From Streptomyces sp. B1I3 (GTDB taxonomy: Bacteria; Actinomycetota; Actinomycetes; Streptomycetales; Streptomycetaceae), in the NCBI RefSeq assembly GCF_030816615.1, contig NZ_JAUSYD010000001.1, forward strand, positions 5,540,501 to 5,604,500: a DNA stretch of 64,000 nt, in the 5' to 3' direction. The notes below the pieces were generated by a model. It did no database searches. It was not told the DNA's origin and saw only the letters and a program-made list of their open reading frames with translations. The translations under genes and the position numbers were made by a program. Shown here piece by piece: positions 11,268-27,591 of this stretch. Each line of letters opens with the position of its first letter. Positions within the stretch are counted from its first letter, which is position 1.

Positions 11268-11310
11268 CAATATTCACCGATCCCCTTGACGGGACAGCAC
11301 AGGAGCCCTC

Positions 11311-11625
11311 ATGGAACCGCAGGTGGTGGACCACGTTGAGAAGTCCCGCTACGAGATTTTCACCGGTGACGACGGCACCGAGATCGCGGGCTTCGCCGAG
11401 TATCACCTTTCGGAAGGCGAGCTCGCCTTCATCCACACCGAGACCGAACCCCGGTTCGCAGGTCGGGGGCTGGGCGGACTACTCGCCCGGGGCGCCCTCG
11501 ATGACGCGCGGACACGTGGGCTGCGCGTCCTGCCGTACTGCCCCTTCATCCGGGGGTGGATCGGCAAGCACCCCGAGTACGCCGACCTGGTACCCGACGC
11601 GCGCCGCGCACATTTCGGCCTCTGA
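11311..11625 (+). CDS. NATD-type (YjdJ-like) GNAT N-acetyltransferase
   Basis: This 104-residue single-domain protein is the compact GNAT form lacking the N-terminal strands. The acetyl-CoA-binding signature FAGRGLGGLL (about residues 50-59) is clear, and the C-terminal CPFIRGWIGKHPEY is the conserved tail of this subgroup. The sequence aligns end to end with the family's usual length of 90-110 residues. The substrate is unknown. The start is ATG 11311 after AGGAG. It lies 43 bp after the transporter gene and could be read as the last gene of that unit. Confidence 0.88.
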   Translation: MEPQVVDHVEKSRYEIFTGDDGTEIAGFAEYHLSEGELAFIHTETEPRFAGRGLGGLLARGALDDARTRGLRVLPYCPFIRGWIGKHPEYADLVPDARRAHFGL

Positions 11626-12054
11626 AGCGCGCCGACCGAAGCAGGCCGCGGCCCTGGACGCGTGCCGAGCCCACGCACAGGGCTTCCAGAAGTAGTCGAC
11701 AAGCTGTCGACCCAGCTGCTCCAGTCCCTCGGACGCAGTTCATGTTCGACGGTTCGGAACCCGATGCCTGCGACAGCGGGTGCCGGGACGTTATGGAAGG
11801 CGCCATCGACCGGATCGGCGCAAAGAGCAACCAGGTGATGGCCGACTCCATCGAACGGTCCTGTGCGGTGGCGAGGGCCCGCCGTCCTGCTGCTGGTCCC
11901 CGCGCTGCTGGCGCTGAGGGCCGGTCTCCTCCTTCCCGGCCTGTGCGCGCCCTGCTGCAGTCCTTCATAGCCGGGGAGGGGGACGCAGTGGGGTGGGCTC
12001 GACAACTACGCGTGGCCGCTCTACGGTTCCGAGGCGCTTGTCGCGCTGCGCACG
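11626..12054. other. Intergenic stretch, no recognisable gene
   Basis: About 430 bases between the acetyltransferase and the transposase remnant. Frames are open on both strands but the translations show no family features. A palindromic TCGACAAGCTGTCGA lies near 11696-11710. Given the decay on its right it may be degraded coding sequence. Confidence 0.4.
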
Positions 12055-12560
12055 CCCCGGCCCCCGCCGGGACGCCCGGATCGCCACCGGTAGCGGCACC
12101 GACTGAGGGTTGTCACCGACCTGTCCGGGCGTCAACAGGATAGACAAGGGACGGCCGTTCCCGTCCACAGCCAGGTCCCTTCGGTGCTCAACCCGCCGCG
12201 GGATCGTCCCAGTGCCTCGCCGCCGACCGGCGCAACCGGACGCGTGCCGCGGCCCTCCCTTTTTCCGTGCCCCTGCCGCATGCTGATGGTGCCCGGGCGA
12301 TGGTGGAGCCGACCGACACCACCCATCGATCGTCCCGCCCGCGTCATCGTGCGCCTGGACCTGCGTGAGGATCCGATCCCAGGTCCCATCCGCCGTCCAT
12401 CGGCGCAGCCCTCTTATGGCAGGTCTTCCACGGCTCCTACCGCTCCGGCAGGTCCCGCCACGGCGCACTCGTGCGTACCTTTCACAAGAGCCCGTCGATG
12501 ACCTGGCGATGAACCCGCCACCGGCCACGACGCCCGTTGGAGCGTGCAATAGCGGCATGA
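12055..12560 (-). pseudogene. Degenerate IS5-family transposase remnant
   Basis: Read on the minus strand, the three frames together give successive pieces of an IS5-type DDE transposase. The N-terminal piece HRQVIDGLL is followed by TGA, then KVRTSAPWRDLPER by TAG, then EPWKTCHKR. A second frame carries RRWTADGTWDRILTQV. A later piece has QHAAGARKKG, then the frame with LAVDGNGRPLSILLTPGQ and GDNPQ. The order and spacing match a full IS5 transposase up to about two thirds of its length. The rest, including the last DDE Glu region, is gone. At least two nonsense codons and several frameshifts make it non-functional. No clear terminal inverted repeats were found. Confidence 0.75.
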
Positions 12561-12645
12561 TAAATCCCGACCTACCCGGTGTCCTCGAAGGACGTTCGGG
12601 CCCAGCCAGGGTCAGCGACGCCGCCTGTCCGATACCGCCGTCCGA

Positions 12646-13521
12646 TCATTTCCAGGGGGCTCGGCTGATGTCCAGCCGTTCGGATGACGGCTCGTATCCC
12701 GCTGACCTGTAGGCGGCGGCAGCGTTCGAGGTCGGGGTGGTGACGAGTGCGCTTGATGCACCCGGTTCACGCAGCGCCGCCGCAGCGGCGACGCTGATCG
12801 CCGTCCCGTAGCCGCGACCGTGATGGTCGGCGTGCACACCCACCGGCTCCAGCAGGCCGGGCTTGCCTGGCCCGGCCGACCGGACCGTTGCCGCGGCCAC
12901 CGCGTTGTCCTGGTCGTCGTGGCCCGATCAGGCAGCGGGCGTCGGCATAGACCGGCCAGGCCGCGACGGCGTGCCACATCTCCTCGGTGAACGCCGGACT
13001 GCCGAACGCCGAGCGGTGCACTGCGGTCCGCGCCCCCGCCGTCTCCGGACCGGCCACCTCGAATCGCAGGCCAGAGTCCTTCACCGGCTCGGCGAGGTCG
13101 TGGCGCAACGGCGTCCACGGCTCGTCCAGAATCCAGCCCGCCTCCAAGAGGACCTCGCGGAGCAGGGAACCGTCGGGGATTTCGAGCCGACCTTTCCGGG
13201 CGGCAGGACCCCGCGCTCCGGATCATCGAGGTCCGCCAGCAGCCGGCGCGCCAGATGACCGTCCTGGCGCAGGTCCGGCGCGGTCGTCAGGCGCAGCTGA
13301 TCAGTTTCGTCCAGGTATCCGACGGCAATGATCCGTCCGTCCACGCTCCAGGTGCGGACGGCCGCGGCCAGCCTCTCCGCGCCCAGCGCCCAGGCCCAGC
13401 CGAGGTCTCCTGGATGGAGTTGCAGCGGCGTTCGGTCGTCCTGCCGTACGCGGAGGGCATCCACGACCCGGGTCAGCCCATCGACGCCGGGCTCGTTCAG
13501 AACGATCGTCATGCCTGGCAT
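12646..13521 (-). pseudogene. GNAT acetyltransferase broken by two frameshifts
   Basis: Three overlapping minus-strand frames make one protein of about 290 residues. It opens MPGMTIVLNEPGVDG and runs to about 13170, then moves one frame to continue LEIPDGSLLREVLLEAGW and LDEPWTPLRHDL. Near 12910 it moves again to give HDDQDNAVAAATVR and the acetyl-CoA motif HADHHGRGYGTA, ending GYEPSSERLDISRAPWK. The C-terminal third is a textbook GNAT fold. Each break needs only a one-base change. Either the gene is recently inactivated or the assembly carries two indels; the adjacent IS5 decay favours true loss. Substrate unknown. Confidence 0.78.
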
Positions 13522-13743
13522 CTCACACCATCGCGGCGACCCGCCGCACCAGGGGTTTGCCCAGCCAGGCAGACCGGCAGGACCTGCCCTTGGCCCACTC
13601 CAGGTCCAGTCGACCGGCTCGTGACGGTGAAAGCCGACGCCCAGCCGGCCGACGCCGATTGCTTCCAGGCGCAACTCTGCGCCTGGGGGCAAGACGTGGT
13701 GCGTCACGCGACAACTGGCGGCGCAGCGCCGACCGTAGCGTGA

Positions 13744-14637
<894 letters not shown>

Positions 14638-14696
14638 CGCCGCACCCGCCGCTCCCAGTCCACATCCGCAGGATCCAGACAGGTTCAGGAGAACAC

Positions 14697-15794
14697 ATGC
14701 AATTCGGCATCTTCACCGTCGGAGACGTGACACCCGACCCGACCACCGGCCGCACGCCGTCGGAGCATGAGCGCATCAAGGCGATGATCGCCATCGCGCT
14801 CAAGACCGAGGAAGTCGGCCTTGACGTCTTCGCGACGGGCGAGCACCACAATCCGCCGTTCGTACCGTCGTCCCCGACCACGATGCTCGGCTATATCGCC
14901 GCCCGCACCGAGAAGCTGATCCTGTCCACCGCCACGACGCTGATCACCACCAACGACCCGGTGAAGATCGCGGAGGACTACGCAACACTCCAGCACCTGG
15001 CCGACGGCCGGGTCGACCTCATGCTGGGGCGTGGCAATACAGGCCCTGTGTACCCGTGGTTCGGGCAGGACATCCGCCAGGGCATCAACCTTGCCAAGGA
15101 GAACTACGCACTGCTGCGCCGGTTGTGGCGCGAGGACGTCGTGGACTGGGAGGGAACGTTCCGTACGCCCCTGCAGGCCTTTACCTCGACACCCCGGCCG
15201 TTGGACGGCACCCCGCCGTTCGTCTGGCACGGATCCATCAGGTCCCCGGAGATCGCGGAGCAGGCCGCGTTCTACGGCGACGGCTTCTTCCACAACAACA
15301 TCTTCTGGCCCCTGGACCACACCAGGCGCATGGTCCAGCTGTACCGGCGTCGCTACGCTCACCACGGTCACGGCCGTCCGGAGGACGCCATCGTGGGTCT
15401 CGGCGGACAGGTCTTCATGCGGAAGAACTCCCAAGACGCCGTGCGAGAGTTCCGCCCGTACTTCGATAATGCTCCCGTGTACGGCCACGGCCCCTCGCTG
15501 GAGGAGTTCACCGAGCAGACCCCGCTGACCGTGGGCTCACCCCAGCAGGTCATCGAGCGGACCCTGACCTTCCGGGAGTCGGTCGGCGACTACCAGCGCC
15601 AGCTCTTCCTGATGGATCATGCGGGCCTGCCCCTGAAGACCGTCCTGGAACAGCTCGACATTCTCGGCGAAGAGGTCGTGCCCGTGCTGCGCAAGGAGTT
15701 CGCGAACGGACGCCCGGCCGACGTGCCGAACGCACCGACGCACACGGAACGGGGCATCGCCGCCGCAACGACGCGGGAAGCGACCGCCGCATGA
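14697..15794 (+). CDS. LLM-class flavin-dependent monooxygenase
   Basis: This 365-residue TIM-barrel oxygenase of the bacterial luciferase type uses reduced FMN supplied by a partner. The N-terminus MQFGIFTVGD, the active-site GEHHNPPF (about residues 48-55), LMLGRGNTGP and the GSPQQVIE segment near residue 285 are all family landmarks. ATG 14697 is preceded by AGGAGA. It overlaps the FMN-reductase gene by four bases, so the two are translationally coupled into a two-component monooxygenase. The organic substrate is unknown; relatives of this subgroup act on alkanes, ketones or aromatic compounds. Confidence 0.92.
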   Translation: MQFGIFTVGDVTPDPTTGRTPSEHERIKAMIAIALKTEEVGLDVFATGEHHNPPFVPSSPTTMLGYIAARTEKLILSTATTLITTNDPVKIAEDYATLQHLADGRVDLMLGRGNTGPVYPWFGQDIRQGINLAKENYALLRRLWREDVVDWEGTFRTPLQAFTSTPRPLDGTPPFVWHGSIRSPEIAEQAAFYGDGFFHNNIFWPLDHTRRMVQLYRRRYAHHGHGRPEDAIVGLGGQVFMRKNSQDAVREFRPYFDNAPVYGHGPSLEEFTEQTPLTVGSPQQVIERTLTFRESVGDYQRQLFLMDHAGLPLKTVLEQLDILGEEVVPVLRKEFANGRPADVPNAPTHTERGIAAATTREATAA

Positions 15795-16405
15795 AGCTGA
15801 TCGCCGTTTCCGCAGGGCTGAGCTCCCCCTCCTCCACCCGCCTGCTCGCGGACCGGCTCGTCGGGTCCGCCGCCGGCGAACTCGGGGCCCAGGGACATAC
15901 CGTGCCGACCGAGGTCATCGAGCTGCGCGAACTGGCCCGCGACATCGCCAACCATCTTGTGACCGGCTTTCCACCGCCCCAACTGGCCGCAGCGATCGAC
16001 GCAGTGAAGGAGGCCGACGGTCTGATCGTCGTGACTCCCGTGTTCACGGCTTCCTACAGCGGGTTGTTCAAGTCCTTCTTCGACCTGTTCGACCCGGACG
16101 CCTTCACCGGGAAACCGGTCCTGGTCGCGGCGACGGGTGGTACCGCTCGCCACTCCCTGGTCCTGGAGCACGCCCTGCGCCCGCTCTTCGCCTATCTGCG
16201 CGCCGCCATCGTCCCGACGGCGGTGTACGCGGCGTCCGAGGACTGGGGATCAGGGGGAGACGAGTACACCGACGGCCTCCCCTCGCGCATTCGACGGGCG
16301 GGCAGCGAGCTGGCAGCGCTCATGGCCGCCCGCCCGGCCCGCGTCGAGCCCGAGGATGACGTCACCGCGCTCGAACGGCAACTCGCCGACTTGCGCCTCG
16401 ACTGA
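15791..16405 (+). CDS. NADPH-dependent FMN reductase (flavodoxin-like)
   Basis: This 204-residue flavoprotein supplies FMNH2 to the coupled LLM monooxygenase. The flavin-phosphate loop is SAGLSSPSSTRLLAD (residues 7-21). VVTPVFTASYSGLFKSFFDL (about 81-100) is the conserved isoalloxazine-contact helix of the MsuE/CE1759-type reductases. Start ATG 15791 lies inside the stop of the previous gene. With the upstream hydrolase it forms a compact three-gene oxidation cassette. Confidence 0.92.
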   Translation: MKLIAVSAGLSSPSSTRLLADRLVGSAAGELGAQGHTVPTEVIELRELARDIANHLVTGFPPPQLAAAIDAVKEADGLIVVTPVFTASYSGLFKSFFDLFDPDAFTGKPVLVAATGGTARHSLVLEHALRPLFAYLRAAIVPTAVYAASEDWGSGGDEYTDGLPSRIRRAGSELAALMAARPARVEPEDDVTALERQLADLRLD

Positions 16406-17300
16406 GGCAGGGACGTCCTCGGGGAGGTCGGTTCGGGCCCCCACGCTTCGTACGGATCCTCCGCTACCGCGCTCGGCATCGTTTCCGTCCGGGGCGGCCC
16501 CCGGGCGGCGAATGAGCGTGAACCGATCGACAACCTGGCCTTTCCCGAGGACGTCGGCGGTGTGAGGACGCCCGTCGGCGGCAGGGCGGGGGAACCGGCA
16601 CATCTATGAGCGGCTCGACTCCCTGGCCGCCGCACAGGTGGGGTCCTCCGGGCAGCTACAACACCACGAACCTCGTGGAGCTGCGGCATTTGCGAAGCCG
16701 CGCGGGGTGCGGGCGTACCACGAGGGAGTGGGCCCTGACGACCAGCTTGTGCCGCTCGCCACGCTGCTGGAGGCGTTGATCTCCAGGGAGGTCCGCTGCC
16801 CGGCTCGGGACCTTGCCACGGCCCAGCCAACGGTTCTGGCTGCCCCAGGAAGGAGAGGCCCCAACCGCTGGATGAGAAGGGCACCAGCAGAACGCGGTGC
16901 ATGGGCATCTCCCCTGCTCCACGCTGACGAGAACCCGAAGGAGTGGACGTCCCCATGGACGTCGCTACGGCCGCGGCCTTCACGCGGACGGCCTCGGCGG
17001 CGACGGGGTGGAAGAAGGCGTCCTGGGCCCTGCCGGCCAGGCCGACCGCGCGATCAACCCCTGTGGGCATCGCTTCGGCGCTCAGCGCGCTGGGGCAGTC
17101 ATCGGTGAGGTTCCGGACGTCTGCCACGCCGCCGCCCTACCCGAACCCAAGCCGGTCGCCGACCCCTTGTGGGACGCGGTACGGGCGACGAGCCGACTCT
17201 GTTCTTCAAGCTGTGCGCACGAGGTCAAGATCGTGTGCTTGGGGAGACTCGCCGTCATCCGGAGAACCCTTAATTTCGAGTTGTGGCGAAAGGGATTGGC
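16406..17300. other. Long stretch with no recognisable gene
   Basis: About 900 bases. Both strands contain open frames up to 311 codons, but with Arg/Pro/Ala-rich translations lacking any family feature. No terminator-like stem stands out after the FMN reductase. Given pseudogenes further right it may be eroded coding DNA, but I cannot identify an ancestor. The last 15 bases hold AAAGGGA, the ribosome site of the SsgA-like gene. Confidence 0.45.
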
Positions 17301-17732
17301 ATGAGACTCCCCGTTGAGAAGCAAATCAACGTGACAGTACAGTCGGTGATGGCGGGCGAATGGCATGAACTGCCGCTGGTTATGCGGCACTTGCCGGACG
17401 ATCCGCTGGCGATTCGGATGGAATTTCGGGTGAGTGAGAACGAGCCCCCGATAGCCACCTGGGTATTCAGTAGGGATCTGCTCGCCACCGGGCTCATCTT
17501 TCCGTCGGGCGAGGGTGATGTACGTGTCCGTCCGCACGGTGAGGACGAGACGGACATCGAACTCACTTCCGGATGGGCCTGGTGTGTCGTCAGGATGGCA
17601 TCGGCCGATGTGCGTGACTTCGTGGTCAGGACGCGGTCCGCCGAGGAGTACTGCGGCGAGGAGATAGACACCGCACTCGATCGGATATTGGCGGAGCTCC
17701 TCCCGGCGGGCGTCAAGAATGCGGATTCATAG
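17301..17732 (+). CDS. SsgA-like protein (SALP), sporulation/cell-division regulator
   Basis: This 143-residue protein has the SsgA fold signature. The central VFSRDLLATGLIFPSGEGDV (about residues 54-73) and the FVVRTRSAEEYCGEEIDTAL helix are the two hallmarks of the family. SALPs are confined to sporulating actinomycetes and act on septum placement and peptidoglycan remodelling; SsgB recruits FtsZ. Which SALP this is cannot be told here. The start is ATG 17301 eight bases after AAAGGGA; a GTG at 17283 is in frame but without a site. It stands alone amid decayed DNA, which is unusual for a developmental gene. Confidence 0.88.
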   Translation: MRLPVEKQINVTVQSVMAGEWHELPLVMRHLPDDPLAIRMEFRVSENEPPIATWVFSRDLLATGLIFPSGEGDVRVRPHGEDETDIELTSGWAWCVVRMASADVRDFVVRTRSAEEYCGEEIDTALDRILAELLPAGVKNADS

Positions 17733-17774
17733 GGGGGCAGCACAGTTGATGAGGCCGGCGTGGGAGCGCGTCAG

Positions 17775-17990
17775 AGGAGAAGAACCCTACGGGCACCTTG
17801 AGGACGCGCGAGCCGTGGCGCCAGAGGCGGACATCGGAGGGACTCCTTCTCCAGCAGGTGCATGGCCTGCCGCGACCGGTCCCGGGAAGGGCCACGTTGT
17901 CCGTTGCGGTGCCGGACGCGCTACTGGCGCCGACACCGACGGCCGCGAGCAACGCGAGACGGGATCGGGGCTCGAACGTCCACCTGCAAG
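17775..17990 (-). pseudogene. Fragment of an MMPL-family transporter N-terminus
   Basis: On the minus strand, pieces in three frames line up with the beginning of an MMPL protein: RLALLAAVGVGASSASGTAT, DNVALPGT, then RQAMHLLEKE, then MSASGATARA. This is the order found in the intact MMPL protein of this window (VSGSTTDDFTLPGT, then QAIDLLEKE, then ASAGGATARV). The frames shift at least twice within 200 bases and nothing of the rest of the transporter is present. Confidence 0.65.
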
Positions 17991-18184
17991 GTGACCTGGC
18001 AACACGGGGCCCTCGTCTCCTGCGCCGAGCACCACCAGCCTTTCGGTTCTCATTTTGCGCAGCCTTTGACGGCTGCGTGGGGCCCACTTCCTTCGCCGCT
18101 CACACATGCGGCATCGAACACCGGGGCCAGCAGTGGCCCCCGCACCCTTGAGGAGCCCTCATTCTCTTCTCCTCTTACTCCGTT

Positions 18185-18700
18185 ATGCCGCAAAGTGAAC
18201 GCACCGCCCGCTGCCCCTCACCGACGTTGGCGACCGCACTGGTGGCGGACCTCGGATTCGCAGCTTTCGTCGAACGGAACCGGCCGAGATACATGCGCTA
18301 TGCCGAAGCGCGTCTGCCTGGTGATTCGGCCTGCGCGGCCGTGAGCACCACACTGGCGTCCGCCCGGAAGCACTGGGCCTGGTTGTTGAGTCAGCCCTGC
18401 CCCGCTGCCGAGGTCTGGCGTGAACTGCGCCTTCAGGTAGGACGGCGGGCCGATCGGATCGGACCGCGGGACCCGAGCCTGCTCGTGCTGTACGGACAGC
18501 TCCCGGTCGGGTGCGCCGACAGTGTGGTGTTGTGCCGCTGGATCGGCTTCGGCGTCGATGAGGCGGCCGAGCTGATGGGCGCCGAACCGCCCGCGGTCGA
18601 GGTGGCACTGGCCGTCGCCCGGCGCACGCTGCCACATTTCGTCGATAGAGACACTTCTGAATCGACCGTAGCTTTCCCCGGGCTATCCGCCATCGGATGA
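18185..18700 (+). CDS. Small sigma-factor-like regulator (hypothetical)
   Basis: This 171-residue protein opens MPQSERTARCPSP. Residues 30-80 are helical (FVERNRPRYMRYAEARLPG), recalling region 2 of ECF sigma factors. Residues 125-155 (VVLCRWIGFGVDEAAELM, then VALAVARRTLP) resemble a region-4 helix-turn-helix. The region-2 DNA-melting motif is not clear, so it may be a sigma-like protein that no longer initiates transcription. No Shine-Dalgarno is visible before ATG 18185, so a leaderless start or a different start is possible. Neighbouring DNA is decayed but this frame is intact. Confidence 0.55.
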   Translation: MPQSERTARCPSPTLATALVADLGFAAFVERNRPRYMRYAEARLPGDSACAAVSTTLASARKHWAWLLSQPCPAAEVWRELRLQVGRRADRIGPRDPSLLVLYGQLPVGCADSVVLCRWIGFGVDEAAELMGAEPPAVEVALAVARRTLPHFVDRDTSESTVAFPGLSAIG

Positions 18701-19136
18701 TGCCGGACCACCTGGCCGTCAGCTATCACCGGTCCGCGGTGCCTGCCCCACGCCGGCCATCAAGGAGGTGCCTGACGGGCACCGATCTCCAAGGGCTCAG
18801 CCGCGCCTTCGGAGCCTCCGCCTGAGCGCGGACCAGATTTTGCAACTTCGTTGCGTCCCCCTGCTACCTGCGTCGCCGGGAAGCCAGAACCGATATGTCT
18901 GCGGCTCCTGGTGCCGGCTAGATACGGAGTGTGACTGCGGGTGTGGGGGGAGAGGCGGCAATTGAGTCGGCGCATGCGCTGCGGGTGAGCGCGCGGGTGG
19001 CTGCCTTGCAGCAGATGTGCCGGGCGCGGGAGTGCGCTCCGTACCCGTGCGGTACGTACCGCACCGCAGTGCGGCTGCCGGGGACCGAGCCGGACGCAGC
19101 GGGATCCAGCAGGATGTGAATGTCCACCTCTGTGGT
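18701..19136. other. Gene-free stretch with an 18-bp palindrome
   Basis: No recognisable gene on either strand. The only structure is the perfect palindrome GTGCGGTACGTACCGCAC at 19047-19064. Its half-site GTGCGGTA recurs at 19251 and GTGCGGTAC at 19272, so four half-sites bracket the tRNA-like fragment. Confidence 0.5.
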
Positions 19137-19212
19137 GTTTCCGCAGGTGAGAGGCGTCACGCTTTTGGGTTCGAGTCCCACCCGCCCCACCAGTTCCACC
19201 CTGCGGAAACGT
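19137..19212. other. Candidate attachment-site remnant with inverted repeats
   Basis: GTTTCCGCAGGTG (19137-19149) and its inverse CACCCTGCGGAAAC (19199-19212 on the plus strand; complement GTTTCCGCAGGGTG) enclose a tRNA 3' end. A tRNA 3' half bounded by inverted repeats is the usual form of a tyrosine-recombinase attachment site. No integrase gene is present in the window. Confidence 0.5.
19163..19192 (+). tRNA. tRNA 3' fragment (T-arm, acceptor strand, CCA); not a full tRNA
   Basis: GGGTTCGAGTCCC at 19167-19179 is a canonical T-arm with a seven-base TTCGAGT loop. It is followed by the acceptor strand CCGCCCC, discriminator A and an encoded CCA (19190-19192). The outermost T-stem pair is mismatched. 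No matching GGGGCGG 5' acceptor, D-arm or anticodon arm is present upstream, so this is a 3' remnant. The amino acid identity cannot be assigned. Confidence 0.6.
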
Positions 19213-19299
19213 TCTGACCTGCGCTAACGCGGATTTCGCGGCTGTTTTCCGTGCGGTATGCGCTGCGCGCCGTGCGGTACTGAACCGCTGTCGCATTGT

Positions 19300-19760
19300 G
19301 ACAGCGTGTCCTGACGGGTGAGAGCCGTGCAGTAGGCGGTGTGCCGGGCTGCCGCCGCCACGATTCCGCGAGCGGCCCCGCGTCGACGGCGTCGAACCCG
19401 GTGTACTCAACGAGTGCCATTGCCAGGTCAGGCTCTCGCGCGCTGTCGGTCGCGACGGGGAGCAAGACGCGGTCCGCACCTCCCGCCGGCTTGTTCCTGT
19501 GCGCGCACGACTCGGCTCCGATCAGCCCGCAGCTCTCGGCCTGTCCGGCCTCGATCGCCGCGATTCCGTTGTCCCGCTGTGGGAAGTGGAGCGGCGCGTC
19601 GAAGACAACCGTGTCAGCCGACACCTTGGCCATAGTGGTGCGACCCGCGGAACGCGGGCGAGGGAATGGAGAGGATCAGGGCGTCGGCGTCCACTACGGC
19701 TTCCGCCGCCGGCACCCTGTCCGGTGCTCACGACCAAGGCACCGCCTATCAGCAGATCGT
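19300..19760 (-). pseudogene. NADPH-dependent F420-reductase-like gene remnant
   Basis: Minus-strand pieces in different frames give VVDADALILSIP, then MAKVSADTVVFD, FPQRDNGIAAIEAGQAES, then (after an apparent deletion of about 25 residues) PVATD, MALVEYTGFDAVDAGPLAES and WRRQPGT, and in a third frame YCTALTRQDTLSQ. The order and motifs are those of the NAD(P)-binding F420-reductase/oxidoreductase family. The N-terminal Rossmann GxGxxG is not found. At least two frameshifts and one internal deletion are present, so the gene is dead. Confidence 0.7.
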
Positions 19761-19999
19761 GCATGGCACGACTGCTCGACCCGCCCACCGACGCCTCAGA
19801 CATGAACGGCTCCGGTCCGCCGTGCGGGAGGGAGCCAGAGCTGTCAGGAGTCGTGCGCGCTCGGCCATGGGGATCATCAACAGGATCCAAGCGGTGTCGG
19901 TAGCGTCGAAGGCCGGTCCCGGCGACGCGCCGGCCGTCGGCTGCGAGGTGCACCCGACGGCCGGCAGCGCCACCACCATGGCGCATGCCGATCACAAGG

Positions 20000-21370
20000 T
20001 CAGAATGTGCCGGCGGAGTTGCACTTGGCCTTCTGGGTGATGCAGTCCTTCACGCGGTGCCCGAGACCGGCGTTGTCCCAGGCGTTGAAGAAGTCGCCGT
20101 GGATGGACGATGCCATGCCCGAGGCCAGCCGGAAGCCCGCGGTGCTGCCGCTGGTCGGATAGCTGACGACGAAGGAGAGGTTGGGGATGGCGACAGGGTA
20201 GGCGCCGCTGCACTTGCCGTCGTAGGTGGTCGCCACGTGCGACTTGTGGTCGGGACTGTCGAGGTTCTTGCCGTCCCAGCAGTCGGGGAAGACGAGCTGG
20301 TGGGTGAGATGGGCCTGCGGGGCGCAGCGCGGCCAGTTGCCGTCGGCGCTGCGGCCGATCTCACCGCCCTCGCCGGCGCACCAGTACTGGCCCGGCGAGC
20401 CCGCCGGGGTGGGCGTCTGGGTCTTGGCGTTGCCCGCGATCATGCGGAACCCCTGCGGGAAGGGCACGGTCGCCGAGGGGTCGACGAGCCGGGAACCGTA
20501 GTACACGATCATGCCCTCGGCCTCGACGGCCTTGTCGCCTTCGTACAGGGTCGGGATCCAGTACGCCGAGAGGTCGTTGGCAGGGGTGCAACTGGTGGGT
20601 GTGTTGGTCAGCAGCGACTGGGTCGTGGAGAACGCGTCGGTGCTCTTGTTGCCGAAGAAGCTGTGCATGTGGGACGCACCCGGCAGGCCCGGCAGGACGA
20701 TGGGGTCGTCCGGCTTGGAGTGGCTGTAGGAGCAGGTGGCGTTGAACTCCGGGACCCGGACGATACCGGCGGGCACGGCGGCGGGCGTCATCGCACGGAA
20801 CTGCGCCAACTGGGCGTCCCACTTGGCCTGGTCGATGGGGACCCATCCGGCCGCCGGGCTGTCGCCCGCGCCGACGAAGGAGAACCAGTTGATGTTGACG
20901 AAGTCACCGGCCGCCGTGCTGCGCAGCACGGCGAACACCGTCTGTGCACCGGTGGGATGGGTGGTGACGTCGGTGGCCTGGGTGGCCCAGGTCTGCCAGC
21001 CGCCGGTCGGGGAGACCGGTATGACGGCGAGCAGTGGTCCGGTCAGGCTGCCGGTCCGGAATTCCACCGTGCCCGAGCCGACGGCCGACGCGATCCGGGC
21101 CGACACCGTCAGCCGGCCGGCCGCGCCGAGGTCGACGTTGTCGTAGCGCATCCAGTCGCCGTTGGCGAGGAACGCGGCGTTCTGCCCGCCCCCGATGTCC
21201 CCGGTCGCCTCCGACGCGACACCCGACTGGGCTGCGTAGGACTCGGCCTGGACGGTGACCGTCGCGGCCTGGGCCTGCTGGGTCGATACGGTCAAGCTCA
21301 GGGCGGCGGTCAACACGACCGCCAGAGTGCTCACCAACAGTGTGTACAGATGGACGGGATATCTGCGCAT
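20000..21370 (-). CDS. Secreted CBM6-DUF1996 protein
   Basis: This 456-residue secreted protein has a Sec signal peptide (residues 1-36, ending QQAQAA). A CBM6-type carbohydrate-binding domain follows at about 37-170, with AESY near the start, NGDWMRYDNVDLG and the WFSF terminal strand. The DUF1996 domain (about 200-450) has its hallmark His/Cys/Trp residues in CSYSHSKPDDP, GASHMHSFFGN, YWCAGEGGEIG and VFPDCWDGKNLDSPDHKSHV. DUF1996 has no proven activity but is common in fungal and streptomycete secretomes. With the GH16 gene upstream on the same strand it belongs to an extracellular polysaccharide-degrading set. Confidence 0.92.
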   Translation of the reverse strand: MRRYPVHLYTLLVSTLAVVLTAALSLTVSTQQAQAATVTVQAESYAAQSGVASEATGDIGGGQNAAFLANGDWMRYDNVDLGAAGRLTVSARIASAVGSGTVEFRTGSLTGPLLAVIPVSPTGGWQTWATQATDVTTHPTGAQTVFAVLRSTAAGDFVNINWFSFVGAGDSPAAGWVPIDQAKWDAQLAQFRAMTPAAVPAGIVRVPEFNATCSYSHSKPDDPIVLPGLPGASHMHSFFGNKSTDAFSTTQSLLTNTPTSCTPANDLSAYWIPTLYEGDKAVEAEGMIVYYGSRLVDPSATVPFPQGFRMIAGNAKTQTPTPAGSPGQYWCAGEGGEIGRSADGNWPRCAPQAHLTHQLVFPDCWDGKNLDSPDHKSHVATTYDGKCSGAYPVAIPNLSFVVSYPTSGSTAGFRLASGMASSIHGDFFNAWDNAGLGHRVKDCITQKAKCNSAGTF

Positions 21371-21545
21371 TTCACTTCCTCACGGGCATCAGGGGTGACG
21401 GGTCTGCTCGCCGAAGTACAGCGATGGGAGAGCGGGAGGCGGACGGTGGCGCTTGCCCGCAGAACGATTCGGGTGTGTCGGACCGCCGCCCGCAGGGGGC
21501 GGGCGGAGCCGCCCGGGACCTTCGCGGTCACCGGGCGGCCAGGGG

Positions 21546-23261
21546 TTACTGATAGACCCGCACGTGGTCGACGAGCATTTTGGCGGGGAAGGGGGTGCTG
21601 GCGTCTGTCGGGCCCGGCCAGTCACCTCCGACCGCCAGGTTGAGGATCAGGTAGTGAGGGTGGTCGAAGATCCACGGTCCGCGAGTCTGCTCCACCTGCT
21701 CCTTGTCGAGAGTCAGAACGGTCCGGCCGTCCAGGCTGTAGGTGATGCCCTTGCTGTTCCAGTCGGCGACCCAGGTGTGGAAGTCGTCGGAGAAGTCGGC
21801 GTTCCCGGGCAGTGTGTACGGCGCGCCGATTCCACCCCCGCCGTTGTAGGCGGGCGCGTGGACGGTCGAGTAAGCGGTCTTCACGTCCTTGCCGAGGATC
21901 TCCATGATGTCGATCTCGCCGTTGTACGGCCACGGCCGGCCCGTCAGGAAGTCACCGCCCATCATCCAGAACGCGGGCCACAGACCGTTGCCCTTGGGCA
22001 CCTTGATGCGTGCTTCGACGCGCCCGTAGGTGAACTGGAACGTCGCGCCGGTGTTCATCCGCGCCGAGGTGTACTGACACGTGGTGCTGCCGCTCAGCGG
22101 GTCACGCGGGCACGACGACCCGGCGGTGACCTCCTTGCGTGCTTCCATCACCAGGTGTCCCGCCCCGTCCAGTGCGGCGTTGCGGTGGTCGGTGTAGTTC
22201 TCCAGCTCGTTGTTCGGCCCGGTGCCCGGGTCGGCCCTCCACTTCGACGAGTCGGGTTTGCCGCCTGCGGCGCCGTCGAAATCGTCGCTCCACACCAGCC
22301 GCGGCGGGTTCGCGGGGTCACTCGGCAGCGGCGGAGCCTGTATCGGATCGCCGCCGGTGCCGTACACCTGGAACTCCCACAGCGAGTAGCCGTAAGGGGT
22401 GGCGCGCTGCGTCCCGTACATGCGCACGTAGCGGCCGGTGCCGGAGACGGTCAGCGTCTGCTTGAAGCCCGTGCCGGACGTCGTCGAATAGATCGGTGTC
22501 CAGTCGGCTCCATTCGAGGAGACCTGGATCTGGAAGGACTTGGCGTAGGCGGGATCCCACTGCAGGACGACCTTGTCGATCTGCGCCGTCGCACCGAGAT
22601 CGACGGAGATCCAGCCTGGATCGGTCCATCCCGTGGTGGAGCTTGTGGACCAGCGAGAGGCCGGATCCCGGTCGAAAGCCCTGGCCGGCGTGCATTCCCA
22701 GCAGTTCTGGTCACTCTGGGAAGAGGAAGCCGCGCCCGGCCTGCCGTAGGAGAGCAGCCTGGCGGTGTCACCGCCGGAACCGCCGGTGCCGTACACCTGG
22801 AACTCCCACAGCGAGTAGCCGTACGAGGTGGCGCGCTGCGTCCCGTACATGCGCACGTAGCGGCCGGTGCCGGAAACAGCCAGGTTCTGGGTGCCGCCCG
22901 TGCCCGCGGCTGTCTGGTGGACGACGGTCCACCTCTCCGCGTCGCTCGATACCTCGATCCTGAACGCGGTGCCGTACGCGGCTTCCCAGTTGAGGACGAC
23001 CCGGCTGATCCCGGCACTCGCCCCGAGGTCGATCTGAATCCACTGCGGGTCGGCGAAGGCGCTGGACCAGCGCGTCCCGGGGTCGCCGTCGACGGCGCTA
23101 CGAGCGCTGAAGTTTCCCTCGGTACTTGAGGAGGTCGCGGGCTTTCCCTGAGAGAGCAGCACCTCCGCCGCCTGCGCGGAGGGGGTAGGGAGAGAGATGA
23201 AAGCGAGCAGTGCGGCCGCGAGGGCCAAAAATAAGCTGAAGCGACGCAGCGGCGCTTGCAT
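21546..23261 (-). CDS. Secreted GH16 beta-glucanase with two discoidin (F5/8C) domains
   Basis: This 571-residue secreted glycoside hydrolase has a signal peptide (1-31, ending SAQAAE) and two F5/8-type C (CBM32-like) domains at about 33-160 and 170-305, each closing with RYVRMYGTQRAT and YSLWEFQVYG. A GH16 catalytic domain occupies about 325-571. The catalytic motif GEIDIMEILG near residue 450 supplies nucleophile and acid/base Glu (ExDxxE form), which is typical of laminarinases/beta-1,3-glucanases. The start ATG 23261 follows GAGGAG. Upstream are two LacI-type operators and a divergent LacI regulator, which most likely represses it until an oligosaccharide is present. Confidence 0.94.
   Translation of the reverse strand: MQAPLRRFSLFLALAAALLAFISLPTPSAQAAEVLLSQGKPATSSSTEGNFSARSAVDGDPGTRWSSAFADPQWIQIDLGASAGISRVVLNWEAAYGTAFRIEVSSDAERWTVVHQTAAGTGGTQNLAVSGTGRYVRMYGTQRATSYGYSLWEFQVYGTGGSGGDTARLLSYGRPGAASSSQSDQNCWECTPARAFDRDPASRWSTSSTTGWTDPGWISVDLGATAQIDKVVLQWDPAYAKSFQIQVSSNGADWTPIYSTTSGTGFKQTLTVSGTGRYVRMYGTQRATPYGYSLWEFQVYGTGGDPIQAPPLPSDPANPPRLVWSDDFDGAAGGKPDSSKWRADPGTGPNNELENYTDHRNAALDGAGHLVMEARKEVTAGSSCPRDPLSGSTTCQYTSARMNTGATFQFTYGRVEARIKVPKGNGLWPAFWMMGGDFLTGRPWPYNGEIDIMEILGKDVKTAYSTVHAPAYNGGGGIGAPYTLPGNADFSDDFHTWVADWNSKGITYSLDGRTVLTLDKEQVEQTRGPWIFDHPHYLILNLAVGGDWPGPTDASTPFPAKMLVDHVRVYQ
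22358..22870 (-). repeat. Near-identical repeated segments in the two discoidin-domain codings
   Basis: About 85 bases at 22358-22445 and again at 22786-22870 are almost identical at DNA level. They encode the GRYVRMYGTQRAT and GYSLWEFQVYGTGG ends of the two domains. This points to a recent tandem duplication or gene conversion. Confidence 0.8.
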
Positions 23262-23286
23262 GGGCGACTCCTCAAGTGGGGGAGGT

Positions 23287-23302
23287 CAGGGAGCGCTCCC
23301 TG
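23287..23302. promoter_or_regulatory. LacI-type operator, perfect 16-bp palindrome
   Basis: CAGGGAGCGCTCCCTG lies 26 bp upstream of the GH16 start. Its core GGGAGCGCTCCC is the CebR-type LacI operator known for streptomycete polysaccharide genes. It is expected to bind the adjacent regulator. Confidence 0.8.
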
Positions 23303-23386
23303 AAAGGGAGGATGGAGGGACTGGTGAAGGCTGTCAAGACCTCTTTCACCTCAAGAAAACAGCGACGTAACACCCTCGACGTATGT

Positions 23387-23402
23387 CAGGGAGCGGTCTC
23401 TC
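23387..23402. promoter_or_regulatory. Second, imperfect LacI-type operator
   Basis: CAGGGAGCGGTCTCTC repeats the left half of the first operator exactly and the right half imperfectly, 100 bp away. It is placed to serve the divergent regulator gene or looping between the two sites. Confidence 0.6.
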
Positions 23403-23589
23403 AGGGCCTACGCGGCGCGTCGGCAGCCACGGGGGTGGCGCTGAGGGAGACGCCTTTCCGGGCCCGCTCACGTCGCCCCGGCCTGCGGATACGCTGCTCG
23501 CATCGCCATGACGCAGAGCCGGAGGTCGCCCTGATGAGAAAACCCGCCCCGCGCACGAACCCGGGCGGCGGCACAGGGGACGGACAGGT

Positions 23590-24582
23590 ATGAAACGCCC
23601 CACTCTCGATGTGGTAGCCGCCCGAGCGGGCGTGTCCAAATCGAGCGTCTCCCGGGTCATCAACGGCGAGACGACGGTCGCCCCGCAGATCCGAGACGTC
23701 GTCATGCGCGCCGTGAACGAATTGGGCTACGTGCCCAACGGTGCGGCACGCAATCTCGTCACCCGCCGCACTGACACCCTCGCCGTGGTGGTATCCGACC
23801 CGCCCCAAGGAGTCGTCTCCGACGACCCCCTCTTCTCCGCCGTGGTCCGCGCCGTCAGCAGAGAGCTCGAGACGGCGGGCAAACGGCTCGTGCTCATGCT
23901 CGCGGAATCGGACCGGAGCCGGACCAGAGTCGTGCAGTACATCGCCGGCGGGCACGTGGACGGCGTGCTCCTGGTCGCCTTGCACGGGACGGATCCGCTG
24001 CCGGCCGCACTGGCCCGGCAGGGGCTGCCTGTCGTGTCCTTCAACCGCACCTCCGCACAGGACGTCCCGTACGTCGCGCTGGACAACGCCGGCGGAGCGG
24101 CGCTGGCCGTACGTCATCTCCTGGAGCGCGGTCGGCGCCGGATCGCCACCATCACCGGGCCGCTCGAACTGTACGAGGCGCGTGAGCGCCTCGATGGCTA
24201 CCGTCAGACGCTGCGTGACACCGGCCGTCGCTCCATCGTGGCACTGGGCGACTTCACCAGAGCCTCCGGCGCCGAAGCCATGCGGCAGCTCCTGGAGGAC
24301 GATCCCGACCTCGATGCGGTGTTCGCAGCCAACGACCTGATGGCGATCGGAGCCCTGCGCACCCTCCATCGAGCGGGCCGGCGCGTCCCCGAAGACGTGG
24401 CGGTCATCGGCTTCGACGACATAGAAGCCGCGTCCTACACCAGTCCCGCGCTCACCTCGGTGCGCAGCCCGATGGCCGACCAGGCGACCGCCGCCGTCCA
24501 CCTGCTCCTCGGCCTGATCGACGGCGGCCCCACAGGGCCGGTGATCATGCCGAACGAACTCGTCGTGCGCGAGTCGACCTGA
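23590..24582 (+). CDS. LacI-family transcriptional regulator
   Basis: This 330-residue repressor has an N-terminal helix-turn-helix (TLDVVAARAGVSKSSVSRVI, residues 5-24) with the hinge helix ending NGAARNLVTRRT. A periplasmic-binding-protein-like sugar-sensing domain follows, containing GHVDGVLLVALHG, VALDNAGGAALAV and the VIGFDDIEAA core motif. It is divergent from the GH16 gene with two operator-like palindromes between them, so autoregulation and control of the glucanase are the simplest reading. The effector would be a beta-glucan oligosaccharide; that is inference. Confidence 0.93.
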   Translation: MKRPTLDVVAARAGVSKSSVSRVINGETTVAPQIRDVVMRAVNELGYVPNGAARNLVTRRTDTLAVVVSDPPQGVVSDDPLFSAVVRAVSRELETAGKRLVLMLAESDRSRTRVVQYIAGGHVDGVLLVALHGTDPLPAALARQGLPVVSFNRTSAQDVPYVALDNAGGAALAVRHLLERGRRRIATITGPLELYEARERLDGYRQTLRDTGRRSIVALGDFTRASGAEAMRQLLEDDPDLDAVFAANDLMAIGALRTLHRAGRRVPEDVAVIGFDDIEAASYTSPALTSVRSPMADQATAAVHLLLGLIDGGPTGPVIMPNELVVREST

Positions 24583-24606
24583 TCTACCGTCAGCACGCCT
24601 TCACCC

Positions 24607-24647
24607 CCGCGAGCGGAGCGCCGGCGCCGACGGCGCTCCGCTCGCGG
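24607..24647. terminator. Strong hairpin terminator after the LacI gene
   Basis: A 16-bp perfect stem (CCGCGAGCGGAGCGCC and its complement) with a 9-base loop starts 25 bp after the LacI stop. No T-run. Confidence 0.8.
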
Positions 24648-25001
24648 TGAGCAGAACGCCGGTTGTGGGGCCAGGCCCGCTCGTGCGGGCAGCGCCACGC
24701 AGGCAGGAAAACGGCCGCGAGGATACGGACCGCGGCGTGGTTCACGGTCGGGATCGTTGTGCCACCGCCGCGCTCGGCTCATTGCCGGCCCCGGTGAGGC
24801 GTCGGGGTGAGTGATTTCCCTGCGAATCGAGCGCCACGAAAGCCGCACCAAGCAGATATGACCCAGATCACTTCGAGCTGGGATTCGTCTCCACATCACT
24901 TGCGTCACACTGGTCCTCGGCACGCACCGGTCGAGGCGAACTCCCGGTGTGCGATGCCGTGAGACGTGGAGGGGCGTCCGATCATCTTGTAGAAGACAAG
25001 A
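24648..25001. other. Intergenic region before the amidase gene
   Basis: About 350 bases with no convincing gene. Immediately before the amidase start lies an inverted repeat CTTGT-AGAAG-ACAAG (24986-25000), which includes the in-frame TAG that closes the amidase frame upstream. No clear promoter hexamers were identified. Confidence 0.45.
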
Positions 25002-27236
25002 GTGTGGGGAACCGCGGCCGCGGTTGCGGCCGGCATCATCGGAGTCACCGTTCTCCAGGGGAACTCCAGCAGTCCCGGAGGCGACAGCACGAGTGACAAC
25101 GCCGTCGCGGAACCGGTGCAGGCCGATGTCCGCTCAACGGCTCTGGCCGTCAAGGGAGACCGGGCTGAGGTCCCCGAGCGGACCACTGAACCGTTCAGCA
25201 TGCTCGGTCTGTCCTGGACGAAACCGACAGCCGGTCTGACCGGCACTGTTGAGGCCCGGGCACGCAGCACCGCAGACGGTAGCTGGGGCTCGTGGATCAC
25301 CCTCGAGTCCGACGGTGACGGCGCAGCCGAAGCGGAGAGCCGTCGCGGTGCCACCGAGCCCGCATGGGTCGGCCCGTCAAACGGCGTGCAGGTACGTGTG
25401 GACGGGAAGGGCTCCGCTCTCCCGGCTGGGCTGCGCCTGGACATGGTCGACCCCGGCAAGGGCACGGCAGTCATCGGCGCCAAGAACGCCGCGTACGCCA
25501 TCGACGACCCCTCCGCCAGTCCGCCGCAGGCCACCGACGACGCCTCTTCCCCGCCGGAGGAGACAGGCGAGCCCGGCACACCGCCCGCCGTCACCCCATC
25601 CGCTTCTCCCTCGTCCTCCCCACCTGCGACGCCCACTCCGCCGGCAACATCGCCTGTGCCGTCGCAGCCGACGACCAGCGCACCACCCTCCCCGAGCACC
25701 TCATCGCCACAGACACCTCCGCCTGGGCCGGCCTCGACCGCCCCCCGCCCGACAATCGTGACTCGGGCGCAGTGGGGCGCAGATGAGTCGCTCAACGACG
25801 AGGCACCGCAATACGGCAAGGAGATCAAGGCCGTCTTCGTCCACCACACGGTCGACAGCAACGGCTACTCCTGCGCCCAGTCCGCCGCCATGATCCGCGC
25901 CGTCCGGGCTTACCACATGTCACAAGGCTGGAAGGATGTCGGCTACAACTTCTTCGTCGACAAGTGCGGCACGATATTCGAGGGACGCAAGGGCGGCGTC
26001 GACCAACCGGTCATCGGTGCGCAGGCCGTCGGATTCAACACGGACACCACCGGTATCGCAGTGCTCGGAGAGTACTCCTCCATCGACGCCACCACCGCGG
26101 CCAAGAACAGCGTGGCGCGAATCGCGGCCTGGAAGCTCGGCCAGTACCGGCACGACCCGGCCGGCAAGGTCACCCTGACGGCCGGTCTGAGCAACGGCAA
26201 GTTCACCCTCGGCCAGTCGGCGTCCTTCAACCGCATCTCTGGCCATCGCGACAGCTACGCCACCGAATGCCCCGGAAACCAGCTCTACACCTCGCTGGCC
26301 GGCATCCGCACCCTGGCGGCCGGCCCCGTCAGCGGCCTCACTCTCAAGCCCTTCACCGGCGTCGGCATATCAGGTTCCACCGCGTACACCAGAAGCACCG
26401 CCACGGTGAACTGGTCCCTCACCACACCGACCGCATTCGTCAGCCGTTTCGAGATCCTCGTCGACGGCAAGATCGCCGCAACCCCCGGCCCGACAGCCAC
26501 CTCAGCACCGCTCACCCTCACCCCGGGCACCCACACCGTGGCCGTACGAGCCGTCCACATCTCCGGCAAGACGGCGGTGACGCCGAACACCACCGTCGTC
26601 GCCGACACCACGACGCCCTCCTTCACCACCAAGCCGTCGCTCGTGCTGCGCACCGGCACCGTCAACACCACGGCCGTCCCCATCACGCTGGGCTGGAAGG
26701 CCGCCGACACCGGCGCCTTGAAGGAGGTACGCCTGACCCGCCCCTCCGCGCGGACCTTCGGGCCCACCACCACGACCGCCGCGCTCACCTCGAACTCCGG
26801 CACCGCAACGAGCTGGTCGATGACCGCCTACGACCAGGCCGGCAACACCGCCACGGCCTCGGTCCCCGCCACCCCGGTGCTCCTCCAGGAGACCTCCGCC
26901 ACCCGCGCCGGCACCTGGACCACCAAGACCTCCAGCAGCTACCTCGGCGGCAAGTCCTACAGCAGCAGCAGCAAAAACGCCTCACTCAGCTGGAAGTTCA
27001 CCGGCCGCTCCGCAGCCTGGGTCGTATCCCGCGCCAGCAGCTCCGGACAGGCATACGTCTATGTCGACGGGGTCAAGGCGGCCACCTTGGATCTGAAGTC
27101 CACGACCACCAAGTACCGCGACGTTCAATGGACCAAGTCGTGGTCCACGACCGGCAGTCACACCGTCAAGATCGTGGTCGTCGCGACCTCGGGCCGCCCG
27201 ACCATCACCACCGACGGCCTTGTCTACGTGAAGTAG
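25002..27236 (+). CDS. Secreted N-acetylmuramoyl-L-alanine amidase (PGRP type)
   Basis: This 744-residue cell-wall hydrolase has a short hydrophobic N-terminus (residues 2-20) and an N-terminal domain to about 165. A Pro/Ser/Thr linker (about 170-245) and a PGRP/amidase_2 domain (about 250-450) follow. The zinc ligands are visible as FVHHTVD (His281/282), GHRD (His415) and ECPGN (Cys423), so the enzyme should be active. The C-terminal half holds Ig-like repeats, probably for wall or protein binding. The start is GTG 25002; an in-frame TAG lies just upstream and no good ribosome site is seen, so the N-terminus may be a truncated signal peptide with its charged region missing. Confidence 0.9.
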   Translation: MWGTAAAVAAGIIGVTVLQGNSSSPGGDSTSDNAVAEPVQADVRSTALAVKGDRAEVPERTTEPFSMLGLSWTKPTAGLTGTVEARARSTADGSWGSWITLESDGDGAAEAESRRGATEPAWVGPSNGVQVRVDGKGSALPAGLRLDMVDPGKGTAVIGAKNAAYAIDDPSASPPQATDDASSPPEETGEPGTPPAVTPSASPSSSPPATPTPPATSPVPSQPTTSAPPSPSTSSPQTPPPGPASTAPRPTIVTRAQWGADESLNDEAPQYGKEIKAVFVHHTVDSNGYSCAQSAAMIRAVRAYHMSQGWKDVGYNFFVDKCGTIFEGRKGGVDQPVIGAQAVGFNTDTTGIAVLGEYSSIDATTAAKNSVARIAAWKLGQYRHDPAGKVTLTAGLSNGKFTLGQSASFNRISGHRDSYATECPGNQLYTSLAGIRTLAAGPVSGLTLKPFTGVGISGSTAYTRSTATVNWSLTTPTAFVSRFEILVDGKIAATPGPTATSAPLTLTPGTHTVAVRAVHISGKTAVTPNTTVVADTTTPSFTTKPSLVLRTGTVNTTAVPITLGWKAADTGALKEVRLTRPSARTFGPTTTTAALTSNSGTATSWSMTAYDQAGNTATASVPATPVLLQETSATRAGTWTTKTSSSYLGGKSYSSSSKNASLSWKFTGRSAAWVVSRASSSGQAYVYVDGVKAATLDLKSTTTKYRDVQWTKSWSTTGSHTVKIVVVATSGRPTITTDGLVYVK

Positions 27237-27249
27237 GCACCTCCGGTGC

Positions 27250-27283
27250 GGCCGGGCAGGGGACCGGGACGTCCTGCCCGGCC
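27250..27283. terminator. Hairpin terminator after the amidase gene
   Basis: An 11-bp perfect stem (GGCCGGGCAGG and complement) with a 12-base loop lies 14 bp after the stop codon. The remaining bases to 27591 hold no recognisable gene. Confidence 0.7.
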
Positions 27284-27591
27284 GTAAGGCGTGCGGTCAG
27301 GATTTCCTTGTCGATCGGGCAATGGCGACTGCGCGATCGAGCCTCAGCCTGCGGCTCACCCCCGAGCGAGCAGAGCCGCACTGCCGGAATAGTTCGATCG
27401 GCGGCACGCTTCTGTGGCCGTACGGAGCCCGAACGGTACGACCCTCCGGCCCCTCGCCCGCCCCTCCCACTTCCACCGACGTGACAGACAGCCCCGGCCC
27501 CGGATCTCGTTCCGGGGGCGGGGCTGTTCCGTGTCGTGCGCGGGTGGGGACTCGGCGGACGCCCGCCCACGCACGGGTCGTCCTGGAGGCG

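Follow-up and report, generated by a model that had tools for sequence, protein, structure and literature searches.

A likely tyrosine-recombinase attachment site at a tRNA-Met end bounds a 40-kb CIME-like island in Streptomyces sp. B1I3

The composite site at positions 19047-19280 of the window, which is the whole stretch of 64,000 nucleotides of Streptomyces sp. B1I3 DNA that was analysed (genome positions 5540501-5604500), is attR of a 40-kb island, and the corresponding attL lies outside the window. From sequence comparison, we consider it probable (about 0.8) that this 39,982-bp island was integrated by a tyrosine recombinase, with the crossover in the T-loop region of tRNA-Met(CAT), and that it is CIME-like and mobilizable in cis. 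The island looks like a passenger that would depend on the enzyme of another element in order to move. The reading of the site as a tyrosine-recombinase attachment site, given in a preliminary description of this DNA, was supported by the presence of the tRNA end at both ends of the island, by relatives without the arm and by an associated integrase in related genomes.

The partner end was located upstream of the window site, where an intact tRNA-Met(CAT) gene occupies genome positions 5519634-5519710; the length of the island is the core-to-core distance between the two. The preliminary description had proposed a search for an intact tRNA with the same 3' end, and 27 bases of the site were found to be exactly the 3' end of this tRNA-Met in the same genome. 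No tRNA gene was detected in the window by ARAGORN, and the tRNA end at 19166-19192 is therefore a fragment, carrying the encoded CCA that had been described. A genome search revealed the second copy of the site at genome position 5519683/5519684, as against 5559666 for the window copy, with 88-89% identity over 115-122 bp. This second copy begins in the T-stem of the intact tRNA-Met and continues as a diverged copy of the same downstream arm. Since, leftward of the core, the similarity does not extend beyond the T-stem, the crossover was placed in or near the T-loop. The tRNA 3' end is duplicated at both ends of the insertion, as at tRNA sites used by tyrosine integrases, and attL and attR are both retained, as in a CIME. 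The right end of the island was 76% identical to G100 and to G029, two related elements that were 85% identical to each other over 409 bp; diverged island ends are as expected if the island is old. The parts of the site and its surroundings are given in Table 1.

Table 1. Features in and around the attachment site, numbered from the first letter of the window.
Feature	Position	Strand	Basis
Right-hand 19 kb of the 39,982-bp island	1-19165		Core-to-core distance; left part at genome 5519711-5540500, outside the window
P-arm palindrome GTGCGGTACGTACCGCAC, 18 bp, of inverted half-sites GTGCGGTAC and GTACCGCAC	19047-19064		Read in the sequence
Three direct repeats of ~10 bp, GAGCCGGAC, GCAGCGGGAT, CCAGCAGGAT	19087-19115	+	Alignment columns largely conserved
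Conserved flanking motif GTTTCCGCAGGTGAG	19137-19151	+	Matches the consensus across viral contigs
GTTTCCGCAGG, left of core	19137-19147	+	Read in the sequence
Short palindrome GGTGAGAGGCGTCAC just left of core; GGTGAGACGCGTCACC in other sites	19146-19160		Invariant or nearly invariant alignment columns
Core TGGGTTCGAGTCCCACCCGCCCCACCA, tRNA-Met(CAT) 3' end from T-stem to encoded CCA	19166-19192	+	Exact match to the intact tRNA
GTTTCCGCAGG inverted, right of core	19200-19210	-	Motif scan
Degenerate second motif copy CTGACCTGCGCTAACGC; counterpart at attL CTGACCTGCGGAAACAT	19214-19230	-	Sequence comparison
P'-arm half-site 1, GTGCGGTAT, one mismatch	19251-19259	+	Read in the sequence
P'-arm half-site 2, GTGCGGTAC, 21 bp from half-site 1, same orientation	19272-19280	+	Read in the sequence
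Further accessory DNA	19281-29000, end approximate in 28.5-31 kb		Not matched by the DNA flanking tRNA-Met in G027 or G095
Probable chromosomal backbone	31123-44015		Its genes follow tRNA-Met in site-free relatives, in a different order

The pieces of the site are rare. Exact GTGCGGTAC occurs three times in the 64-kb window against 0.52 expected, a count that none of 100 shuffles reached, and all three copies fall inside 234 bp. The 18-bp palindrome composed of two half-sites was present as first described, while only three of the four reported half-site copies are exact, the other being the mismatched copy of the P' arm. The two halves of the palindrome were interpreted as putative arm-type integrase sites, and 16 aligned sites carry an 18-bp palindrome or near-palindrome at the equivalent place, with different half-site letters. 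The three direct repeats are, by position only, putative excisionase-type sites. At one mismatch or fewer, GTTTCCGCAGG was found six times in the window against 1.22 expected, again a count reached by none of 100 shuffles; an additional exact copy at 15806-15816, just within the start of the FMN reductase gene (15791-16405), is probably due to chance. In the 7.52-Mb single-contig genome, GTTTCCGCAGGTSAG occurs exactly in two places only, this site and the left end of the island, and at one mismatch or fewer in 10 places, compared to none for a control pattern. An RNA element was rejected, as Rfam gave no match at the gathering threshold and the predicted fold of 19130-19220 was no better than that of shuffled sequences (z = -0.73).

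Relatives without the site illustrate what has been added to this chromosome. In G027 and G095 the DNA after the tRNA-Met gene is different and lacks the arm, and no site-model match at 1e-4 was present among the matches listed; the tRNA flank of G076 likewise lacks the arm. Orthologues of the genes at 31-44 kb of the window come after tRNA-Met at a distance of no more than 1.7 kb (G027) and 7.4 kb (G095), and no orthologous island was seen between the tRNA and these flanking genes. The gene order differs in both genomes, with the genes of 35-38 kb preceding those of 31-34 kb, so that these insertion-free relatives do not provide a base-exact empty site. The proposed comparison with strains lacking the insertion showed that the region is not conserved in an insertion-free form. 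Orthologues of the genes at 31123-32499, 32519-33988 (partial in L411) and 37377-38414 were identified in both L411 and L412, that of 35856-37361 in L412, and those of 38544-39119 (partial) and 42498-44015 in L411. As arm and island are missing from these two relatives, the island of 40 kb is an addition, and so probably are another ~10 kb to the right of attR.

The DNA at 19281-29000 is probably the remnant of an earlier element that supplied the P' arm at 19.25-19.28 kb. The GC content rises at 29-31 kb, and the amidase gene at 25758-27236 has relatives inside site-bounded elements of other genomes. No second site was found to the right of attR, as the window holds one match only to the R1 site model. 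In the proposed mechanism, the P' arm right of the core would derive from this older element, inserted earlier at the same tRNA, which would amount to tandem accretion.

These relatives also bear on the idea that the sequence is a conserved regulatory or terminator element downstream of tRNA-Met and not an attachment site. The downstream motif often lies in hairpin-like sequence near tRNAs, and a query of the tRNA end with the arm matched at least 149 of 150 congeneric genomes, many over the tRNA end only, as a regulatory element might. Sites with left arm and core, in contrast, occur away from tRNA genes in arrays and bound different cargo. This explanation is extremely unlikely and was rejected because G027, G095 and G076 possess the tRNA without the arm.

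The contents of the island were obtained by Pfam scans of its 31 predicted genes, 30 as proteins and the 31st within a 120-aa integrase fragment. The content is metabolic, transport and regulatory, and the cargo includes a histidine kinase, an MMPL transporter, an SDR, an isochorismatase, an amidohydrolase, a luciferase-like monooxygenase and an FMN reductase. The scans of the 31 genes found no relaxase, coupling protein or intact integrase. The cognate integrase family described below was absent from this genome at E 1e-15 and from the island and its flanks at 1e-5, and the island shares with CIMEs the lack of integrase and conjugation genes. By these Pfam scans the island did not qualify as a prophage, structural and packaging genes being likewise absent. 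The 120-aa integrase frame at genome position 5535119 was rejected as the integrase of the island; it shows no similarity to the cognate family at 1e-5 and lies 15 kb inside the island. At genome 5535119-5537946, left of the window, this integrase C-terminal fragment is followed by a 603-aa protein, with a sub-threshold Phage_integrase match only (E 0.15), and an 85-aa protein; the segment possibly represents the remains of a multi-recombinase transposon inside the island.

An AICE integrase of the kind found at tRNA-Met in other strains could be supposed to have placed the island, since other tyrosine integrases lie directly at tRNA-Met in G082, G012, G055 and G006. The far repeats of these elements, however, start in the anticodon loop (GACTCATAATCC...; L042 of G012, L043 of G082) and not in the T-stem, and thus indicate another crossover position, for which reason we rejected this agent and regard it as very unlikely. 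The island itself was also rejected as an AICE of the pSAM2 type, as the scans revealed no int, rep or tra genes and the core starts in the T-stem.

A candidate enzyme for sites of this kind was identified in relatives. In G025 and G023, the arm motif and two half-sites come after tRNA-Met, and a tyrosine integrase of 411 aa (Phage_integrase 3.2e-17), which reads away from the tRNA, begins within ~50 bp of the half-sites. Matches at least 80% identical to this protein were detected in G025, G023, G113, G052 and G055, the last two partial, which corresponds to five of the 18 genomes with the site among the matches listed against none of the 132 others (Fisher p = 1.4e-5, kinship ignored). Without the discovery genomes G025 and G023, the figures were 3/16 against 0/132 (p = 0.001, kinship ignored). 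A tyrosine integrase is thus associated with the same type of site. A candidate for the integrase using the half-sites, which the preliminary description had proposed to look for, was found in relatives, where its own arms carry the same kinds of half-sites; none was detected in this genome.

The half-sites at the two ends of integrase-bearing elements tend to agree. Exact agreement of both ends, tRNA end included, was observed on one contig each in G006 (half-site GTCAGCAC with palindrome GTGCTGACACGTCAGCAC), G085 (GTCAACAC with GTGTTGACGCGTCAACAC) and G008 (GTCAACG(C) with GCGTTGACGCGTCAACGC). The ends in G025, 88 kb apart, agree with one mismatch of eight; in G113 the half-sites agree across two contigs; and in G023 the arm and the nearest full site, which lies 130 kb from the integrase, differ at one or two of eight bases per half-site. 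In G052, GTGCGGTAC-class arms adjoin an integrase relic. Distant members of the family, 37-59% identical in the left ends read, lie at tRNA-Ala, Ser, His and Leu genes; they use other tRNA genes and other half-sites. The element of G085 encodes a TrwC relaxase, a TraG/TraD-type coupling protein and ParB, and is therefore a T4SS-type ICE by content. A further distant member, at L391 (G145:C9), is 40% identical over the first 192 aa, has one internal stop and lies at the end of a tRNA-SeC gene.

The site belongs to a family that is spread across the genus. The R1 model, built from 16 sites in 10 genomes including this one, gave at least 31 attR-type matches (left arm and core, at least 100 bits) in 18 of the 150 congeneric genomes among the matches listed, eight of these 18 genomes being independent of the model; 22 of the 31 listed matches extend to model position 237 or beyond. 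Within the named loci, 48 R1 matches were found in 43 of the 56 searched, out of 71 of which the 15 left out are mostly non-actinobacterial and include two from Bifidobacterium. Common to the aligned sites are the palindrome of 18 bp, perfect or nearly so, some three direct repeats, GCAGGTGAG..CGTCAC, the end of the tRNA and the downstream motif, while the palindrome letters vary (GTGCGGTACGTACCGCAC, GTGCAGCGAACGCTGCAC, GTGTGGCGAACGCCTAAC); related sites carry other tRNA ends and other palindromes. A literature search conducted mostly outside subscription journals found no account of this site family.

In total, 27 elements delimited by such sites, 1.8-30.6 kb long and distributed over 15 genomes, were examined in addition to this island. 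Their ends are conserved between genomes while their interiors differ, and no gene cluster is common to more than six of them. The elements were screened in six frames with a tyrosine-recombinase profile from the integrases of this genome (E 1e-3) and by tblastn with the cognate integrase (E 1e-5), and in 26 of the 27 no integrase was found, the exception being the relic in G052. Judging from translated gene starts, some short site-bounded units appear to hold toxin-antitoxin-like gene pairs. Arrays of sites in one orientation occur, and that at G057:C1:5590442-5632611 (L059-L061) presents seven attR-type sites in one orientation over 42 kb, without any integrase found in it; its short units between sites contain small gene pairs that resemble toxin-antitoxin modules. 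For the comparison of half-sites, 27 elements including this island were used, and the class could be read at both ends in 22 of them: GTGCGGTAC occurs at both ends of three (this island, G100 and G029), at one end of two and at neither end of 17 (p = 0.010, kinship ignored). The two ends carry different half-site classes in G072 and in the first element of G057.

The spacing of the half-sites in the left arm tends to distinguish the integrase-bearing elements from the others. Of the 12 pairs detected automatically in 14 integrase-bearing left ends, 11 are direct repeats with a spacing of 11 bp. The left side was viewed at 15 integrase loci, and the spacing count leaves out L390, which has no left end, and L391. 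Three of the 14 ends gave no automatic 11-bp pair (24 bp in L375, no pair in L382 and L387), and such a pair was visible by eye in each. A pair was obtained from 34 of 61 core-downstream segments not chosen for an integrase, some of which border on chromosome instead of an element; the spacing was 21-22 bp in 22 of the pairs, 11 bp in four (L127, L265, L273, L315) and different in eight. Over all pairs, and with kinship ignored, the tests gave p = 1.1e-6 for 11 bp against other spacings and p = 8.6e-5 for 21-22 bp against other spacings. The 21-22 bp pairs are mostly oriented opposite to the 11-bp pairs of integrase-bearing ends, and this island, with 21 bp and the opposite orientation, follows them; by eye, the arm of this kind consists of a palindrome and then a third half-site. 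This difference in geometry argues against simple deletion as the origin of the integrase-less elements, and represents the main new point of the analysis.

The decayed integrated element of the preliminary description was borne out only in so far as the missing integrase fits it; 26 of the 27 comparable elements showed none either, and many share a left-arm geometry of their own, so that the absence seems to mark a type and to go beyond decay at this locus. It is possible, although short of even chances, that the island is an ordinary ICE or prophage that lost its integrase and transfer genes and is now immobile, an outcome compatible with attR. The poorly coding stretches around the site, the divergence between attL and attR (88-89%) and the lack of any integrase of the family in the genome would agree with such a scar. 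A plain deletion derivative, however, should retain the 11-bp left arm, the ends of the elements are conserved across genomes with different interiors, and the half-sites are largely retained at both ends of this island.

The differing geometry also weakens the link to the known integrase, which may not be the agent here, as its left arms have the 11-bp spacing and the opposite orientation. Another tyrosine integrase might therefore serve the island, with the 21-22 bp left arm as its normal P' arm; this is compatible with attR, though not with the named integrase as agent. The 22 of 34 pairs at 21-22 bp in segments not chosen for an integrase, against 11 of 12 at 11 bp in integrase-bearing ends, point in this direction. 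On the other hand, no integrase was found in 26 of the 27 such elements, the right arms of both kinds carry the same kind of 18-bp palindrome, and the GTGCGGTAC class stands beside an integrase of the known family in G052, and we consider another enzyme rather unlikely.

For the attR of a cis-mobilizable island, the following course of events is envisaged. The N-terminal part of an integrase would bind GTGCGGTAC-type half-sites and its catalytic part the core, and strands would be exchanged in the tRNA T-loop. The entry of the island, and any later exit, would depend on an incoming element to supply the enzyme, such as a T4SS ICE whose integrase matches; its movement would require help in trans or accretion with an ICE. 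More tentatively, and doubtful as a whole, the elements may be satellites without an integrase that form one class throughout the genus Streptomyces and range in size from toxin-antitoxin-like units of 1.8 kb to metabolic islands of 40 kb. They would have in common an attP evolved for this purpose, with an 18-bp palindrome in the right arm and, in the left arm, reversed half-sites at a spacing of 21-22 bp, and integrases of passing ICEs with matching half-sites would capture and release them at tRNA-Met, in an integron-like cassette system on tRNA sites. If so, the changed left arm would favour the satellite by biasing or regulating recombination. The half-site class and the tRNA end would then provide a readable code for which integrase moves which island across a genus known for gene exchange, and islands invisible to integrase-based searches could be delimited to the base. 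It would further be a test case from soil bacteria of satellites that alter the architecture of the attachment site and do not merely lose the enzyme. The varying half-sites are a natural data set on the evolution of integrase arm specificity.

Several known systems can be compared with this family. The attP of a lambda-type tyrosine integrase consists of a P arm, a core and a P' arm. The present sites resemble it in having a core in the tRNA 3' end and short putative arm-type half-sites on both sides, but here the half-sites vary between elements, tend to agree within one element, and occur in two left-arm geometries. Integron cassette arrays are tandem, with repeated recombination sites and some toxin-antitoxin units, and the enzyme is not carried by the unit. 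The site arrays are similar in all these respects; in contrast, they have double-stranded composite att sites with a tRNA end, and the elements reach 40 kb. An integron was rejected, as no integrase was found in the arrays tested except the G052 relic and the sites are composite and double-armed, not of the attC type.

CIMEs are defined for Streptococcus ICEs, in the relevant part of the source (PMC5704250), as retaining attL and attR, lacking integration and transfer genes and being part of, or forming, tandem arrays at one site. The island keeps both att sites without such genes, and the sites of the family form tandem arrays. Relevant sections of other reports concern XSAM1 next to pSAM2 in Streptomyces (PMC4891641), TR1 of the Streptomyces scab pathogenicity island (PMC8369830), AICE accretion at tRNA-Arg (PMC9513070) and a survey of AICEs across Actinobacteria (PMC3218068), and as far as these sections go, CIMEs and accretion are already established, Streptomyces included (PMC5704250, PMC9513070, PMC4891641, PMC8369830). 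The present family differs in that the att site is a conserved module of ~240 bp with exchangeable half-sites and a genus-wide range, in the seven-site array of G057 without an integrase found, in a left arm unlike that of integrase-bearing elements, and in that the mobilization is putative.

The mycobacteriophages Yoshi, RitSun, ThetaBob and Demsculpinboyz share 31 bp at 93.5% identity with the T-stem-to-CCA core of tRNA-Met; in Yoshi, this stretch is non-coding and lies ~600 bp away from the gene for the tyrosine integrase of the phage. Their arms are not shared, and in the whole-site search no phage covers 80% of the site. Among phages, the best-placed relative of the 411-aa protein is the integrase of Streptomyces phage Chymera, with 36.9% identity over 98%, a distance too great to conclude that both use the same site. 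No phage or plasmid record was accepted as a present-day carrier of the tRNA-Met site, as none covers 80% of the site and the only matches were tRNA ends in phages and one plasmid site. The latter, on the 968-kb linear Streptomyces plasmid pSSP121038 (L072:11997-12194), is a related site whose palindrome is GTGCCCACGAGTGGGCAC and whose tRNA end is a different one; no integrase was found within 12 kb of it, and its half-site matches the integrase-bearing element of G062.

The inverted repeats reported to frame the core were confirmed on both strands, yet they are not special to it, being common elsewhere in actinobacterial mobile DNA. The widespread motif GTTTCCGCAGGTCAGAG, as at window 19137-19151, was collected at L143-L262. 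At least 120 viral-contig stretches contain it, against 23 for a reversed control pattern, and 118 of 127 copies have C at the free position. With two copies as the query and E up to 10, matches were obtained in 494 of 50,697 phage records, 446 of them named Mycobacterium, and in 94 of 72,556 plasmid records. A full-text literature search returned unrelated papers and, in the matching portion of the phiJoe paper, one primer. The motif is often found beside element-specific repeats or a tRNA end. In several integrase-bearing left ends (L378-L383), CTGACCTGCGGAAACGC was seen by eye to belong to a terminator-like hairpin directly after the tRNA, and the element may therefore supply the tRNA gene with a terminator.
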